From an uncultured Rhodospirillales bacterium (GTDB taxonomy: Bacteria > Pseudomonadota > Alphaproteobacteria > Acetobacterales > Acetobacteraceae), in contig CAIJTR010000145.1 of the NCBI GenBank assembly GCA_903823665.1, forward strand, positions 1 through 43,816: a stretch of DNA of 43,816 bases. Direction: 5' to 3'. Every line of letters starts with the position of its first letter. The stretch's first letter is position 1. Of this stretch, positions 7,895-35,161 are shown piece after piece. The notes under the pieces are model-generated. The model saw only the letters and a list, made by a program, of their open reading frames with translations, had not been told where the DNA came from and did not search any database. The position numbers were made by a program, and so were the translations under genes.

Positions 7895-8848
7895 CGAATA
7901 AAGCCCAGCCTCCCTTGCCCGGACGCGGACGAGGGCGACCAGCATGTCGAGCACCGGGGTGGGAACGCCGGACTGGCGGGCGAGGTGGAGGGTGGCGTCG
8001 TAGAGGGTGGCGATTTCCATGGGGCGGCCGAGCATCAGGTCTTGCACGATGGAGCTGCGGTGGTGGCTGGTGCGGCCGTTGGTGATGGAGGCTTCGATGT
8101 CGAGCTGTGGCGTGCAGCCGAGGGCTTGGGCGATGGCGGCACCTTCGGCATAGATGGCGCGCTGGGCTGCTTCGATGGCGGGTTCAGCCAGATTGGCGTG
8201 GCCTGCGGATTGGGTGAGCACGCCGATGGGGCCGCTGGCCAGGTTCATCAGCAACTTGGACCAAACAGCGGTGCGGATGTCGGGCGTGATGTCCACCGTG
8301 AAGCCGGCCGCGCGCAATGGGGCTGCGATGGCTTCGCAGCGGGCGGAGATTTCGCCGCCGAGTTCGCCGAAGACGATGCGGTTGCGGATGTGGCCGACAT
8401 TCACCACGCCGGGGGAGGTGACTTCGCAGGACGAGTAGACAGTGGAGCCGATGGCGCGGGTGAGGCCGATATGGGTGCGAATGACGTCGTTGGGGTCGAT
8501 GCTGTCGATTTTCGGTTCGGCCGGATACCACCAGGGGATGCCGTTCACCACGAAGGCCACCGGTGTGTTGGGCCCAAGCAGGGGGGCGATGGTGGTGGCG
8601 ACGGTGGCCAGGGCGGGGGTTTTGGTGGTGACGAGCACCGCGTCTTGCGGGCCGAGATCGGCGGGGTTCGAAGTGGCGCGGAGTTTTTCGGTGAAGGTGA
8701 TGTCCGGCGCTTCGATGCGGATGCCGTTCGATTTGATGGCTTCGAGATGCGCCCCGTGGGCGATGACGGACACCTCCGCCCCGCCACGCGCGAGCCGGGC
8801 TGCGAGATGTCCGCCGATGGCTCCGGCGCCGAAGACGCAAACCCTCAC
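7874..8848 (-). CDS. Ketopantoate reductase (PanE/ApbA)-family oxidoreductase
   Basis: This 324-residue NADPH-dependent enzyme belongs to the family that reduces 2-dehydropantoate to pantoate. The N-terminal Rossmann motif is VFGAGAIGGHLAARLA. VVTTK-type Lys (LVTTKTPA), the VVNG loop, the catalytic lysine in VWSKLLMNL and the Glu in GRPMEIATL are all present. Oddities are IAHG where canonical PanE has IARG, and an IPWWYPAEP insertion after the Asn-Gly. These suggest a paralogue with another substrate rather than the housekeeping enzyme. It starts at GTG 8848, coupled (GTGA) to the amidohydrolase stop, so the two are co-translated. The pair suggests a small catabolic operon. Confidence 0.8.
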   Translation of the reverse strand: MRVCVFGAGAIGGHLAARLARGGAEVSVIAHGAHLEAIKSNGIRIEAPDITFTEKLRATSNPADLGPQDAVLVTTKTPALATVATTIAPLLGPNTPVAFVVNGIPWWYPAEPKIDSIDPNDVIRTHIGLTRAIGSTVYSSCEVTSPGVVNVGHIRNRIVFGELGGEISARCEAIAAPLRAAGFTVDITPDIRTAVWSKLLMNLASGPIGVLTQSAGHANLAEPAIEAAQRAIYAEGAAIAQALGCTPQLDIEASITNGRTSHHRSSIVQDLMLGRPMEIATLYDATLHLARQSGVPTPVLDMLVALVRVRAREAGLYSLTNRND

Positions 8849-31778: not shown

Positions 31779-32747
31779 TTATGGACCAGAGATTGGGCCC
31801 CATTTCGGCGCGCGGTCCTTATCGACGACCATGGCGCGGACACCCTCGGCAAAATCGGGGTGACGTGTGACGCGCTGGACTAGGGAGAGTTCGGCGGCAA
31901 GGCATTGTGTGAGGGTACGGTTGGCTCCGGCGCGAAGGATGTCAAAGCTCCAGCGCAACGACGATGGCGACATGTTTGACAGAGTGGCCAGCGTGGTGCG
32001 CGCCCAATCGGTGTCTTCTGCGGCCAGCGCTGCCTCAATCGCCTCAATGGAATGATGGCCGAAGCATCGGTCGATCGCCTCACGGTGCGGGGCTAGGGTG
32101 AAGGGGGGCAGTGCCTCGGCAAAGCCTGCCACCACCGCCACGCCGTCACGCGCCAAAGCCCTACGCAATTTGGGGAGCTGGGCGCGTGGGACGTAATGAG
32201 TGGCGAGACCAGCATGCACTGCGTCGGTGCCGCTGAGGCGGTGGCCGGTCAGCCCGAGAAAAAGCCCAAGCTGGCCGGGCAGGCGGGGCAGCACGTGGGT
32301 TGCTCCGACATCTGGGAACAGTGCGATCGCCGTCTCGGGCATTGCGAACTGGGCAAATTCGGTGGCAATGCGGATCTGGCCATGCACCGATACGCCGATC
32401 CCGCCGCCCATGCAGAAGCCGTCGATCAAAGCGACGTAGGGCTTCGGGTAGCCCGCGATGGCGGCATTCAGGGCGTATTCGTCGGTGAAGAATTCGCGAA
32501 TTACGCTTGCGTCACCGGACAGCGCTGCATCCCGCACGGCGCGGATGTCACCGCCGGCGCAGAACGCCCGCTCGCCGGTGCCCTCGATGACAACGGCATG
32601 GATCACGGGATTATCGCGCCAGCCGGCCAGGGCCAGGGCGATTGCACGGATCATGCCCATATCGAGTGCGTTCAGCGTGCGGGGCCGGTTGAGCCTCAGA
32701 TGGGCGACACGCCCCTGCACATCCACGATCACGCTCGCCTCTTCCAT
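31779..32747 (-). CDS. 3-hydroxyisobutyryl-CoA hydrolase (crotonase superfamily)
   Basis: This 322-residue cytoplasmic enzyme releases 3-hydroxyisobutyrate from its CoA ester in valine breakdown. The crotonase core is clear: LNRPRTLNALDMGM, AFCAGGDIRAV (oxyanion hole) and DGFCMGGGIGVSVHG. The segment FAMPETAIALFPDVGATHVL is characteristic of the hydrolase rather than of enoyl-CoA hydratases, with the catalytic Glu and Asp. The C-terminal extension (about 200-322) and NMSPSSLRWSF also fit. ATG 32747 has GGGGGA 7 bases upstream. No other valine-pathway gene is adjacent. It is divergent from the pseudo-ABC module. Confidence 0.88.
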   Translation of the reverse strand: MEEASVIVDVQGRVAHLRLNRPRTLNALDMGMIRAIALALAGWRDNPVIHAVVIEGTGERAFCAGGDIRAVRDAALSGDASVIREFFTDEYALNAAIAGYPKPYVALIDGFCMGGGIGVSVHGQIRIATEFAQFAMPETAIALFPDVGATHVLPRLPGQLGLFLGLTGHRLSGTDAVHAGLATHYVPRAQLPKLRRALARDGVAVVAGFAEALPPFTLAPHREAIDRCFGHHSIEAIEAALAAEDTDWARTTLATLSNMSPSSLRWSFDILRAGANRTLTQCLAAELSLVQRVTRHPDFAEGVRAMVVDKDRAPKWGPISGP

Positions 32748-32826: not shown

Positions 32827-33978
32827 ATGCTCGGACCGAATGAAACCACGCCCGCGATTGCAGCACTCACCCGCGTGCATGTATTGCCGATCCTGCCAAC
32901 CCATCGTTCGGCAGGGATGGTGGGATTGCAGGATATCTCGCTGCGCATCCAAAAGGGCGAGATCGTCTCGCTGCTCGATGCTGAGATGGGCGGCGGGGCG
33001 GATAGCGTATTGGCGGTGTTCGCGGGCACCGTACGCGCTTCGGCTGGGCAGGTGGCGCTGGACAGCAAGCTGGTTGGCACCAAGCTGCCGCATCAGCGTA
33101 TGATCGGCCTAGTCTCTCGTGATCTGATGCTGTTTCCAACCCACACCGTGATAGAGCATGCGCGGTTTTCGCCTGGCGTGAGCGCCAAGCGGTGTGATGC
33201 GGTTTTGGAGCGGCTGGAGCTTACGGTTGTTGCCCGGCAGCGACCAGCCGAGCTGTCGCCGTCGCAGCAGTTTCGCGTGGCCCTAGCTCGCGCGCTGGCA
33301 CGGGGGCCGAAACTGCTGCTGTTGCAAGACCCGCCAGGTGGGCTGTCCGCCGATCCCACGCTGAAGCCGTTGCTGCGCAGCATAGCAAGCGAAACGCAGA
33401 CTGCCATTCTGCACGCCTGCGGTGACGTGGCGTCTGTTTATTCATTCGCCGATCGAGTGGGCGTGTTGAATTTCGGCTGGATGCAGCAGATCGGCGCACC
33501 GCTGTCGCTGTATGACCGGCCAGATAGTCTGACAGTGGCTCGCGCGATGGGTGCGCTCAATCTGCTCGAAGGCGTTGTTGTCGACAGTGAGGAAGATGTG
33601 GCGCGCATCCGGCTGACGGGTGGGCCGCTGGTGGAAGCCCGCGCCGGTCAGCAATTGCAGCCGAATGAGCCCTGTGTCGTGGCGCTGCGGCCTGAGCGCA
33701 TTGCAGTGGCCGCCATGCGCCCTGATGAACTTGGCGATGGCGCGGTTCCCGTGTGGCTGATCGAGACGATGTTTGCGGGTGAAAAGACCGTTATGCGGTT
33801 CCGTATGGATGCCCGCGCCCCGTCGCCGAACGCAGCCAATCTTGGGGACGCGCAGCCTAGAGCGTCACAGGAGTTGATCGTCACGCGGCCGTCCAGTGCC
33901 GCGCCGCTACGTGGCCAGATGTTGTCGCTGGCGTGGCAGGCGCACCAAGCCCATGCCTTCCGTCTTGAGGTGGCCTGA
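32827..33978 (+). CDS. PotA-like ABC ATPase homologue with all catalytic motifs lost
   Basis: This 383-residue protein aligns in outline with spermidine/putrescine-type ATPases: LQDISLRIQKGEIVSLL, then AVFAG, LMLFPTHTVIEHA, VALARALARGPKLLLL, ADRVGVL and a C-terminal TOBE part with VALRPERIAVAA. None of the motifs needed for ATP work remains. Walker A (about 51-59) is DAEMGGGAD without Gly-Lys-Ser/Thr. The Q-loop is VSRD. The signature LSGGQ is LSPSQ (143-147). The Walker B Asp-Glu is Gln-Asp (167-168), the D-loop is GGLS, and the H-loop His is replaced (CGD at 198-200). The frame is unbroken and followed 2 bases later by a permease. It may be an inactive regulatory or structural subunit, or an old remnant. 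Confidence 0.75.
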   Translation: MLGPNETTPAIAALTRVHVLPILPTHRSAGMVGLQDISLRIQKGEIVSLLDAEMGGGADSVLAVFAGTVRASAGQVALDSKLVGTKLPHQRMIGLVSRDLMLFPTHTVIEHARFSPGVSAKRCDAVLERLELTVVARQRPAELSPSQQFRVALARALARGPKLLLLQDPPGGLSADPTLKPLLRSIASETQTAILHACGDVASVYSFADRVGVLNFGWMQQIGAPLSLYDRPDSLTVARAMGALNLLEGVVVDSEEDVARIRLTGGPLVEARAGQQLQPNEPCVVALRPERIAVAAMRPDELGDGAVPVWLIETMFAGEKTVMRFRMDARAPSPNAANLGDAQPRASQELIVTRPSSAAPLRGQMLSLAWQAHQAHAFRLEVA

Positions 33979-33980
33979 GC

Positions 33981-34673
33981 ATGGGAGCGTTTCTTGGCTG
34001 GGGTAGCCTGCTGCTTTTGCTGTTGCTGCAATTCGTGCTGTCCGGGTGGAGTTCGCTGCTGACGGTACACGGCGTTGTTGGGGCGGATTATCCGGCCGGG
34101 ATGCTGGCGGGTTTGTTTGGCGGCCAACTCACCGTGGTGCTTTGCTGGATTGCGGCGGTGGGTGCCGTGCTGCCCGGTGGTCTTGTGGCGCTGCTGATGT
34201 GGCGCGTTCGGGCCGGTGTCGCGACGCTTGCGGTGTTTTTGGTGCCGTTGCTGCTGCCGTTGCCATACGCCCTGTTGGAGGGTGACACGTTGCTGCTGTT
34301 TGCGTCCCCGGTGGCGTTGGCACAGGGCATGGCCATCGGCGCGCTGTTGGGCTTTTTGCGTCTGAGGGGCCTCAATCCAGACGTACTAAAGGCTGCGGCC
34401 AACTGCGGTGTTGGGCCGATTTCCGCGTATTTTCGCATTGTGGTGCGGCTGGCTTTGCCGGCGATGGCGGCCTCGGCACTGCTTGCGGTACTGATGCAGG
34501 CTGCAGCCATCACCGCCATGTCTGCGGTGATGGCCGGCAAGATCGCAGGGTTTGTTGTGCCTGATCCGTTGCGTTGGGATCAACTGCTGCAGGCGGTGGC
34601 GACCGGCGGCGGCATTGCGGCGGTGCTGGCTCTGCTGATGATCCTCGCTTTGGGGATGATGCGGCGGCAGTGA
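33981..34673 (+). CDS. ABC transporter permease-like protein (PotC/PotI type)
   Basis: This 230-residue membrane protein has about six hydrophobic segments. The segment DVLKAAANCGVGPISAYFRI followed by RLALPAMAASALL corresponds to the EAA loop by which such permeases dock on their ATPase (EAA, then G, then LP). The first position of the EAA is Lys and the loop is somewhat divergent. It follows the degenerate ATPase by 2 bases and overlaps the YaiI-family gene as GTGA. No substrate-binding protein or second permease is present, so this is not a complete transporter. Confidence 0.75.
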   Translation: MGAFLGWGSLLLLLLLQFVLSGWSSLLTVHGVVGADYPAGMLAGLFGGQLTVVLCWIAAVGAVLPGGLVALLMWRVRAGVATLAVFLVPLLLPLPYALLEGDTLLLFASPVALAQGMAIGALLGFLRLRGLNPDVLKAAANCGVGPISAYFRIVVRLALPAMAASALLAVLMQAAAITAMSAVMAGKIAGFVVPDPLRWDQLLQAVATGGGIAAVLALLMILALGMMRRQ

Positions 34674-35161
34674 CGATCCTTTATGTCGATGGCGATGCGT
34701 GCCCGGTGCGCGAGGAAGTATATCGCGTGGCCACCCGGCTTTCGTTGCGGGTGTTTGTTGTGGCCAATGGCTCCCGTCCGATCCGGCCGCCGGAGAACAA
34801 GCTGGTGACGATGATCACCGTTTCGGACGGGGCGGACGTGGCGGACGACTGGATTGCCGAGCGGATCGCCCCGGGCGATGTGTGCGTGACGTCTGACATT
34901 CCGCTGGCGGGGCGGTGCTTGGCGGCGGGTGGCCGTGCGTTGTCACCGAAGGGGCATCTGTGGACGGCGGATAATATCGGGCAGGCGCTGGCCGGACGCG
35001 CGATTGCGCAGCATTTGCGCGAGATTGGGGCGAGCACTGGTGGGCCTTCTGCTTTGACCAAGGTCGATCGCTCGAATTTCCTGGCGGCGTTGGACACGTT
35101 GATCCATCAGAAGGCGCGCGTGGCTCCGCGTATTCCGCCCGGCGCGGGGTGGCCGGGGTAA
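34670..35161 (+). CDS. YaiI/YqxD (DUF188) family protein
   Basis: This 163-residue cytoplasmic protein belongs to UPF0178, a PIN-like fold family of unknown function. ILYVDGDACPVREEVYRVA at the N-terminus holds its conserved acidic and Cys residues. Further marks are VVANGS, the VSDGADVADDWIAERIAPGD segment, VTSDIPLAGRCL and ALTKVDRSNFLAALD. GTG 34670 overlaps the permease stop (GTGA), so it is translated with the pseudo-ABC genes. Other in-frame starts upstream would lie deep in the permease. Confidence 0.9.
   Translation: MTILYVDGDACPVREEVYRVATRLSLRVFVVANGSRPIRPPENKLVTMITVSDGADVADDWIAERIAPGDVCVTSDIPLAGRCLAAGGRALSPKGHLWTADNIGQALAGRAIAQHLREIGASTGGPSALTKVDRSNFLAALDTLIHQKARVAPRIPPGAGWPG

Follow-up and report, generated by a model that had tools for sequence, protein, structure and literature searches.

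Why should a gene for a PotA-type ABC ATPase in which the residues that bind and hydrolyze ATP have been replaced remain open beside a permease gene? The question is raised by the window analyzed here, a contig stretch of 43,816 nucleotides from an uncultured Rhodospirillales bacterium. Because selection has preserved this protein without ATP motifs, along with reduced parts of the transporter, in many genera of one family, it probably serves a purpose different from transport. Our preferred reading, to which we assign a probability of about 0.5 from comparisons of sequence, is that the pair forms a non-hydrolyzing complex made from PotABCD parts, acting as an anchor, sensor, or regulator.

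The module in the window

The preliminary description of this DNA had reported a 383-codon ATPase frame ending two bases before a permease, and ORF calls confirm this arrangement (Table 1). Its further claim that all ATP motifs are replaced while the PotA outline and TOBE domain are kept also stood, on alignment and Pfam, with the D-loop read from the sequence. None of the five motifs scored (Walker A, Q-loop, signature, Walker B, and H-loop) is kept when the protein is aligned to an intact homologue; in Walker B the Asp has become Gln and the Glu has become Asp, and outside the five-motif scoring the D-loop Asp is missing as well. The features of a functional ABC ATPase, i.e. GK[ST], the Q-loop Gln, LSGGQ, the Walker B Asp-Glu, and the H-loop His, are all absent. 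By descent the protein is nevertheless an ABC_tran and PotA/MalK-type family member, on homology and fold, with nucleotide-binding (NBD) and TOBE domains. Pfam ABC_tran (56 bits, E 8e-15) and TOBE_2 (E 2.5e-5) both match over their cut-offs; the NCBIfam models PhnT2 (134.7 bits vs a cut-off of 457.7) and potA (128.5 vs 355.6) do not. An AlphaFold2 model built with 51 homologues as input (pLDDT 88.8, pTM 0.86) superposes on FbpC, MalK, and PotA over almost its whole length, with VIA Z of about 30–33. From the superposition of the model together with the loss of all five motifs, the ATPase fold is predicted to persist with its ATP chemistry gone.

Table 1. Positions in the window of the ATPase, its one-time motifs, the permease, and adjoining genes
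Feature	Position	Strand	Basis
Pseudo-ATPase (PotA/MalK fold, TOBE domain), 383 aa	32827..33978	+	ORF, Pfam, alignment, AlphaFold2
One-time Walker A, DAEMGGGADS, residues 51-60	32977..33006	+	Sequence; alignment to intact homologue
One-time Q-loop Gln, now Arg98 (GLVSRD)	33118..33120	+	Alignment
One-time signature motif, LSPSQ, residues 143-147	33253..33267	+	Alignment
One-time Walker B, LLLLQDP, residues 163-169	33313..33333	+	Alignment
One-time H-loop, HACGD, residues 196-200; catalytic position without His	33412..33426	+	Alignment
C-terminal TOBE half; Pfam TOBE_2 at residues 285-333	33565..33975	+	Pfam
PotC-like permease, diverged, 230 aa, ATG at 33981	33981..34673	+	Profile match, alignment
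Permease EAA/coupling loop, kept, residues 134-160, inside ...LKAAANCGVGPISAYFRIVVRLALP	34380..34460	+	Alignment; model
DUF188 (YaiI/YqxD) gene, context	34670..35161	+	GTG start, 4-base overlap with permease stop (GTGA)
ECH_2 gene (enoyl-CoA hydratase/isomerase family), divergent, syntenic marker of the locus	31779..32747	-	ORF, Pfam

As a control for chance, a GK[ST] Walker A was present in 20 of 20 other ABC_tran matches in this genome; these were picked down a list of 150 scored out of 251 candidates with the window gene excluded, and the control leans toward intact ATPases because the list is the scored part without that gene. Many other ABC ATPases are encoded in the genome, and no second ATPase ORF lies beside the one in the window. 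There are no frameshifts or stops in the ATPase or the permease, so that with both ORFs open neither is a pseudogene in the usual sense.

The permease is diverged, with a Pfam BPD_transp_1 match below cut-off (12.9 bits vs 26.4, E 0.094). A profile of the permeases of the window's genus (g1) picked out PotC proteins from full, intact operons among the ORFs searched, at a best E of 4e-11, and alignment to PotC showed the EAA loop to be the best-kept part of the genus permease; because of this profile match and the loop, the protein is recognizable as PotC-like. The permease model is of low confidence (pLDDT 67), the EAA loop being its best modeled part (block means of pLDDT 85–90), and in a fold search with it nothing passed E <= 0.001, ABC permeases being the top-ranking entries. 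Searching 60 relatives with the permease found one g1 genome, G006, alone at 2.4e-8, with nine others at about 1e-4. The preliminary description had noted a single permease and no binding protein, which holds for the window operon and, at E <= 1e-8 with one query, for binding-protein homologues in the whole genome. Such homologues occur away from the locus in the g1 genomes G003 (E 2.9e-67), G002 (4.0e-22), and G007 (2.2e-9). With one permease, no binding protein, and an ATPase that has lost its motifs, the window operon is not a type I ABC importer.

Conservation, selection, and degrees of loss

The same pseudo-ATPase was found as best match in five of seven other g1 genomes searched (G002, G003, G004, G005, and G006). 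All but that of G004 are 42–46% identical to the window protein, with all five motifs readable and lost; the G004 copy, cut by the contig start, is without the three motifs on its contig. Walker A was present in none of the four copies in which that part was readable, and in G002, G005, and G006 the aligned P-loop is three residues shorter than in intact homologues. A permease follows the ATPase in four of the five, the G005 contig ending inside the ATPase. G001 has the ECH_2 neighbor and no module, neither module nor ECH_2 was found in G007 (75% complete), and G004 gave no ECH_2 match at 1e-40. Recurrence of the same losses in related genomes, a check that the preliminary description had proposed, was thus borne out among the genus members read. 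Intact motifs at this locus in close relatives, which it would have taken as refuting its reading, were absent from these members and present in other genera.

Selection was assessed as omega, the pairwise maximum-likelihood dN/dS (GY94, own script), for up to the eight most similar pairs per genus. Across 63 pairs of degenerate ATPases from nine genera omega was below 0.19 throughout, and the likelihood-ratio statistics for its difference from 1 ran from 8.8 to 269; in the 39 pairs (seven genera) with dS < 2.5 it was 0.033–0.187, and in the others, including all g1 and g80 pairs, dS was saturated. Medians for the degenerate ATPases of six genera were 0.08–0.15 (pairs with dS 0.1–2.5), compared with 0.046 and 0.058 in two sets of intact ATPases and 0.03–0.10 in six sets of ECH_2. 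At degenerate loci the median was 0.08–0.17 for binding proteins and 0.10–0.21 for permeases, some of these from one to four pairs. In all six degenerate genera the TOBE domain was more constrained (0.03–0.12) than the NBD (0.095–0.19); intact copies of g57 showed the reverse (NBD 0.040, TOBE 0.081), and those of g4 were equal (0.038 and 0.036). In the window's genus dS is saturated in all pairs, which leaves omega unmeasurable. Between the window ATPase and four relatives there are 482–510 nucleotide differences per pair and no stops, with at least 12 expected under neutrality, and for the g1 permease about eight stops were expected in each of three pairs and none occurred. Decay is rejected for the sister lineages with measurable dS, because omega is 0.03–0.19 there with ratio tests strongly against 1, a sign of strong purifying selection, and it is unlikely in the window's genus because stops are absent where at least 12 were expected. 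The dN/dS well below 1 that the preliminary description had asked to be tested is thus seen in the sister lineages; the frameshifts, or dN/dS near 1, that would mark a decaying remnant were not found.

The profile of the genus ATPase matched at E <= 1e-60 in 153 of 397 family genomes. From among the matches listed, loci were taken non-randomly, by rank and for genus coverage, and 127 homologues were scored. All five motifs were kept in 63, some of which are paralogues elsewhere, and none in 35 (one of these, from G004, readable for three motifs only); Walker A alone was kept in 20, Walker A and Walker B in six, and Walker B alone in one, and in two only the signature and H-loop were missing. 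At least three of the five motifs were lost in 62 of the 127, spread over 18 genera. Ten more genera were entered via the binding protein, since no ATPase there had reached 1e-60, and their pseudo-ATPases had lost all five motifs in ORFs that were open, bringing the degenerate copies to 72 in 28 genera. Among 16 genera entered via the binding protein, six were without an ATPase in the fetched flank, four of them with the full 1.5 kb. In L215–L218, L220, and L222 a PotD-like binding protein had no ATPase found upstream, the contig ending early in L215 and L216; the ABC match in L215, L216, and L218 is presumably MlaF. The ECH_2 gene lay within the fetched stretch at 81 of 127 loci, 38 of these degenerate, and many degenerate copies occupy the syntenic ECH_2 locus at which sister genera hold intact motifs; in g4 both intact and degenerate operons occur at the same place. 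In a search at the level of the order 69 of 395 matches were at 1e-75, all from the same family, the only one among the matches listed, so that the result bears on this family alone. Matches with one internal stop were reported at G246:C17, G110:C197, and G230:C98, although in G246 (L131) the ATPase ORF proved to be open.

Whether the motifs were lost once or several times is answered differently by different trees. On the ATPase tree one branch parts degenerate from intact copies (support 100/99), with SH-aLRT of 78 for this branch when motif columns were left out and 96 for the NBD only with 58 chosen rows. Other trees ask for more changes, namely seven for ECH_2 (at least four forced), six for the binding protein (at least three), and six for the TOBE half (at least three), and AU tests reject neither single nor repeated loss (p 0.10 and 0.12). 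The conflict could stem from convergence together with long branches or from recombination.

Column by column, in 33 chosen representatives, 27 positions are kept in intact copies (at least 95%) and lost in degenerate ones (present in < 40%), and the five motif stretches, 46 columns in all, account for 16 of these. Among the lost positions are the P-loop Ser/Thr, the Q-loop Gln, the signature Gly-Gly-Gln, the catalytic Glu (Asp in 64% of degenerate copies), and the H-loop His (Arg in 58%). At or near 100% in degenerate copies are many core columns, Gln231, Ala248, Gly252, and Asn255 at the joint of NBD and TOBE, and Trp366 in TOBE (L028 numbering). The stretch of 18 columns after the Q-loop, which we take to be the coupling groove, was noticed post hoc to be relatively well conserved in degenerate groups with a permease-like gene, with identities of 0.58 (g1), 0.85 (g66), 0.81 (g4), 0.70 (g80), and 0.69 (g100), and poorly, 0.52 (g86) and 0.49 (g24), in two groups mostly without one; intact g57 copies that have no permeases keep it too (0.91).

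Partial operons and what the pair may do

The operon sits between the divergent ECH_2 gene and a downstream superoxide dismutase or mlaE gene, and the distance to the latter marker varies with what is left. For the full operon of ATPase, binding protein, and two permeases it is mostly 2.9–3.3 kb, with exceptions from 2.2 to 5.1 kb; where permeases are gone and the ATPase is intact (g57) it is about 1.1 kb, and a lone intact ATPase before mlaE lies within 20 bases of it. Such lone PotA-type ATPases were seen 3–19 bases before mlaE in L061, L079, L089, and L092 and overlapping it by 15–18 bases in L082 and L100. These mlaE-adjoining intact copies have no binding protein or PotB/PotC between, and their context is a phospholipid-transport operon. 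A lone pseudo-ATPase stands directly before the superoxide dismutase gene at 14 loci (g24, g60, g87, g114, and g16), nine of them at 55–72 bases. We had considered a reduced binding protein behind these lone copies and dropped the idea because the short secreted protein there is the Fe/Mn superoxide dismutase.

Loci with 3.2 kb or more of sequence downstream numbered 106, of which 54 were degenerate, 51 intact, and one intermediate. Among the degenerate loci 10 had the full operon, 24 had the binding protein without the complete pair of permeases, and 20 were without a binding protein; the intact ones comprised 22 full operons, 12 with only the binding protein, 16 with none, and one with both permeases and no binding protein found. 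Because the PotB/PotC profiles miss diverged permeases, these figures count the mini-permeases described below and most members of the window's genus as lacking permeases. On these counts the transporter and the motifs were lost in part independently.

Elsewhere in the family some pseudo-ATPases have a binding protein and a mini-permease beside them, others belong to a full operon or stand by themselves, and a binding protein is present at 38 of 62 degenerate loci. That of L096 is an SBP_bac_8 protein whose nearest solved chains are 4i1d, mannopine MotA, and agropine, GABA, and polyamine binders. In several genera the unit is a pseudo-ATPase, a binding protein, and a mini-permease of about 110–230 aa with 3–4 predicted TM segments; many of these genera have small genomes and, judged by that size, may be similar to acetic acid bacteria. 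Outside g4 there are 38 degenerate binding-protein loci, 36 with enough sequence, and at 26 of these 36, in 13 genera, the downstream TM ORF has an EAA-type block, compared with 1.6% of shuffled ORFs. The block form used, AxGLGAx4RxRxLWLP, was drawn after the loops were seen (of 32 ORFs, 8 had matched an earlier pattern that was poorly drawn), nine of the 26 matches come from one genus, and that in L140 looks spurious. In the remaining 10 there were six TM ORFs without the block and four loci with no TM ORF within the length filter, one of which, L084, has a longer ORF with an EAA-type loop. In g86 the binding protein is mostly without a recognizable permease after it, and the g4 degenerate loci keep the binding protein and two permeases, with Walker A in 9 of 10. 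Docking between pseudo-ATPase and permease probably persists, since mini-permeases retain the EAA-type coupling loop at the 26 loci. The membrane complex is not universal, given the 14 lone pseudo-ATPases and the g86 loci.

The preferred reading of a non-hydrolyzing complex could operate as follows. The window pair would be the g1 remainder of a PotABCD-type importer operon beside the ECH_2 gene, with the ATPase fold kept (by model), the residues binding and hydrolyzing ATP gone, and the same dead protein in close relatives. By its coupling groove the pseudo-ATPase would dock on the EAA loop of the permease to give a membrane complex unable to pump, possibly a membrane-anchored scaffold or switch in which the TOBE half presents an interaction surface, likely the output. 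In lineages with a binding protein, a periplasmic ligand could be reported inward through this docking site; the cytoplasmic part, anchored to the membrane, would be all that is left in the window's genus, whose operon has no binding protein. A non-transporting complex had already been suggested in the preliminary description, and the retention of the dead module and of the docking loop fits it; what was incomplete was the picture of a single pair, as the locus is a patchwork. More tentatively, and with somewhat less conviction, we extend the reading to the family: a PotABCD-type operon beside ECH_2 may have given rise, perhaps on several occasions, to a complex that does not transport and is made up of an NBD-TOBE protein without ATP motifs, a binding protein, and a mini-permease of 3–4 helices that is little more than a coupling loop, kept in at least 28 genera for ATP-free ligand signaling or TOBE anchoring.

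The leading alternative gives the ATPase protein a soluble role of its own, performed by its TOBE half independently of transport; this ancestral second role would have been kept when the transporter and ATP hydrolysis were given up, with the window permease incidental. This is rather unlikely but is what one might expect from pseudo-ATPases alone before superoxide dismutase, from intact lone copies before mlaE, and from a TOBE domain more constrained than the NBD in every degenerate genus measured. It fits less well with conservation of the coupling loop in mini-permeases and with the six of 16 binding-protein-entered genera that have no ATPase in the flank, and the constant presence of the ATPase is partly ascertainment because loci were mostly found through it. 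An improbable alternative is that the protein is the degenerate half of a mixed transporter that still transports, paired with an intact multitask-type ATPase from elsewhere in a genome that encodes many. Shared ATPases do exist in type I importers (PMC7658222), and degenerate sites under selection are described beside a canonical site in ABC exporters (PMC7756269). The exporter sites described there can still bind ATP; in the window protein, by contrast, even the P-loop has been replaced, and in three relatives it is shortened. In addition, the window has one permease and no binding-protein homologue was found, and elsewhere the permeases are reduced to about 110–230 aa.

Two further explanations have little probability. 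An ATP-independent carrier, in which the permease with or without a binding protein passes solute down its gradient and the pseudo-ATPase only stabilizes it, could be imagined for the g4 degenerate loci with their binding protein, two permeases, and frequent Walker A, but mini-permeases of 3–4 TM segments and lone pseudo-ATPases cannot form the usual pathway, which makes it very improbable. Slow decay of a useless operon is the least probable of all. Parts have been lost piecemeal and differently in each lineage, G001 is without the module, and a few matches carry an internal stop, e.g. in G246 and G110, though the first of these frames is open; set against this are the low omega wherever dS is measurable, the open ATPase ORFs of the ten further genera, and a window pair without stops.

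Precedents for parts of the preferred reading exist. MalK-type regulatory ATPases, which bind MalT and EIIA-Glc, are importer ATPases that carry a TOBE domain and have a regulatory function besides transport; unlike the window protein, MalK hydrolyzes ATP. PotABCD spermidine/putrescine importers (PDB 8y5f, 8zx1) and GABA/opine-type systems share the ATPase fold, domain order, and TOBE domain and have the permease that the window permease resembles, but the window module lacks ATP motifs, a binding protein, and a second permease. In degenerate sites of the ABC exporters TAP, CFTR, Pdr5, and TmrAB, according to a review (PMC7756269), catalytic residues are replaced yet under evolutionary pressure, as here; the exporter sites still bind ATP and are paired with a canonical site in the same transporter, whereas the sole ATPase of this operon has lost all motifs including the P-loop. 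FtsEX and BceAB-BceRS likewise use ABC parts in non-transport roles, signaling or mechanotransmission, but they are described with an active ATPase (PMC7828314). A literature search, mostly of sources other than subscription journals, returned, among the matches listed, no description of an importer family that is conserved yet has none of its ATP motifs left, and the accessible part of a Gluconobacter knockout screen (PMC12041372) names no such gene. With intact copies in sister genera and graded intermediates at a single syntenic locus, the loss of all ATP motifs from a protein kept by selection offers a natural series on a non-pumping ABC importer. Removing the gene from cultured family members would put the idea of transport-independent roles of importer ATPases to a direct test. 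For annotation, some genes labeled "ABC transporter ATP-binding protein" here probably cannot bind or hydrolyze ATP in the usual way.

Neighboring genes

Several observations concern genes around the module. In L026 an ATGA overlap at 8683 occurs in the same place as the GTGA before DUF188 in the window, which suggests that the DUF188 gene may be translationally coupled to the module in two genus members. In L104, L105, L111, and L118 no ECH_2 was found in the stretch, and upstream of the pseudo-ATPase is a flagellar gene pair, FliI-like and FliJ (Pfam on L104 only). The gene at L061:6162-6536 encodes a small membrane protein with a weak Phage_holin_3_6 match below cut-off, and related genes were present in the stretches fetched for 50 of the 127 loci.
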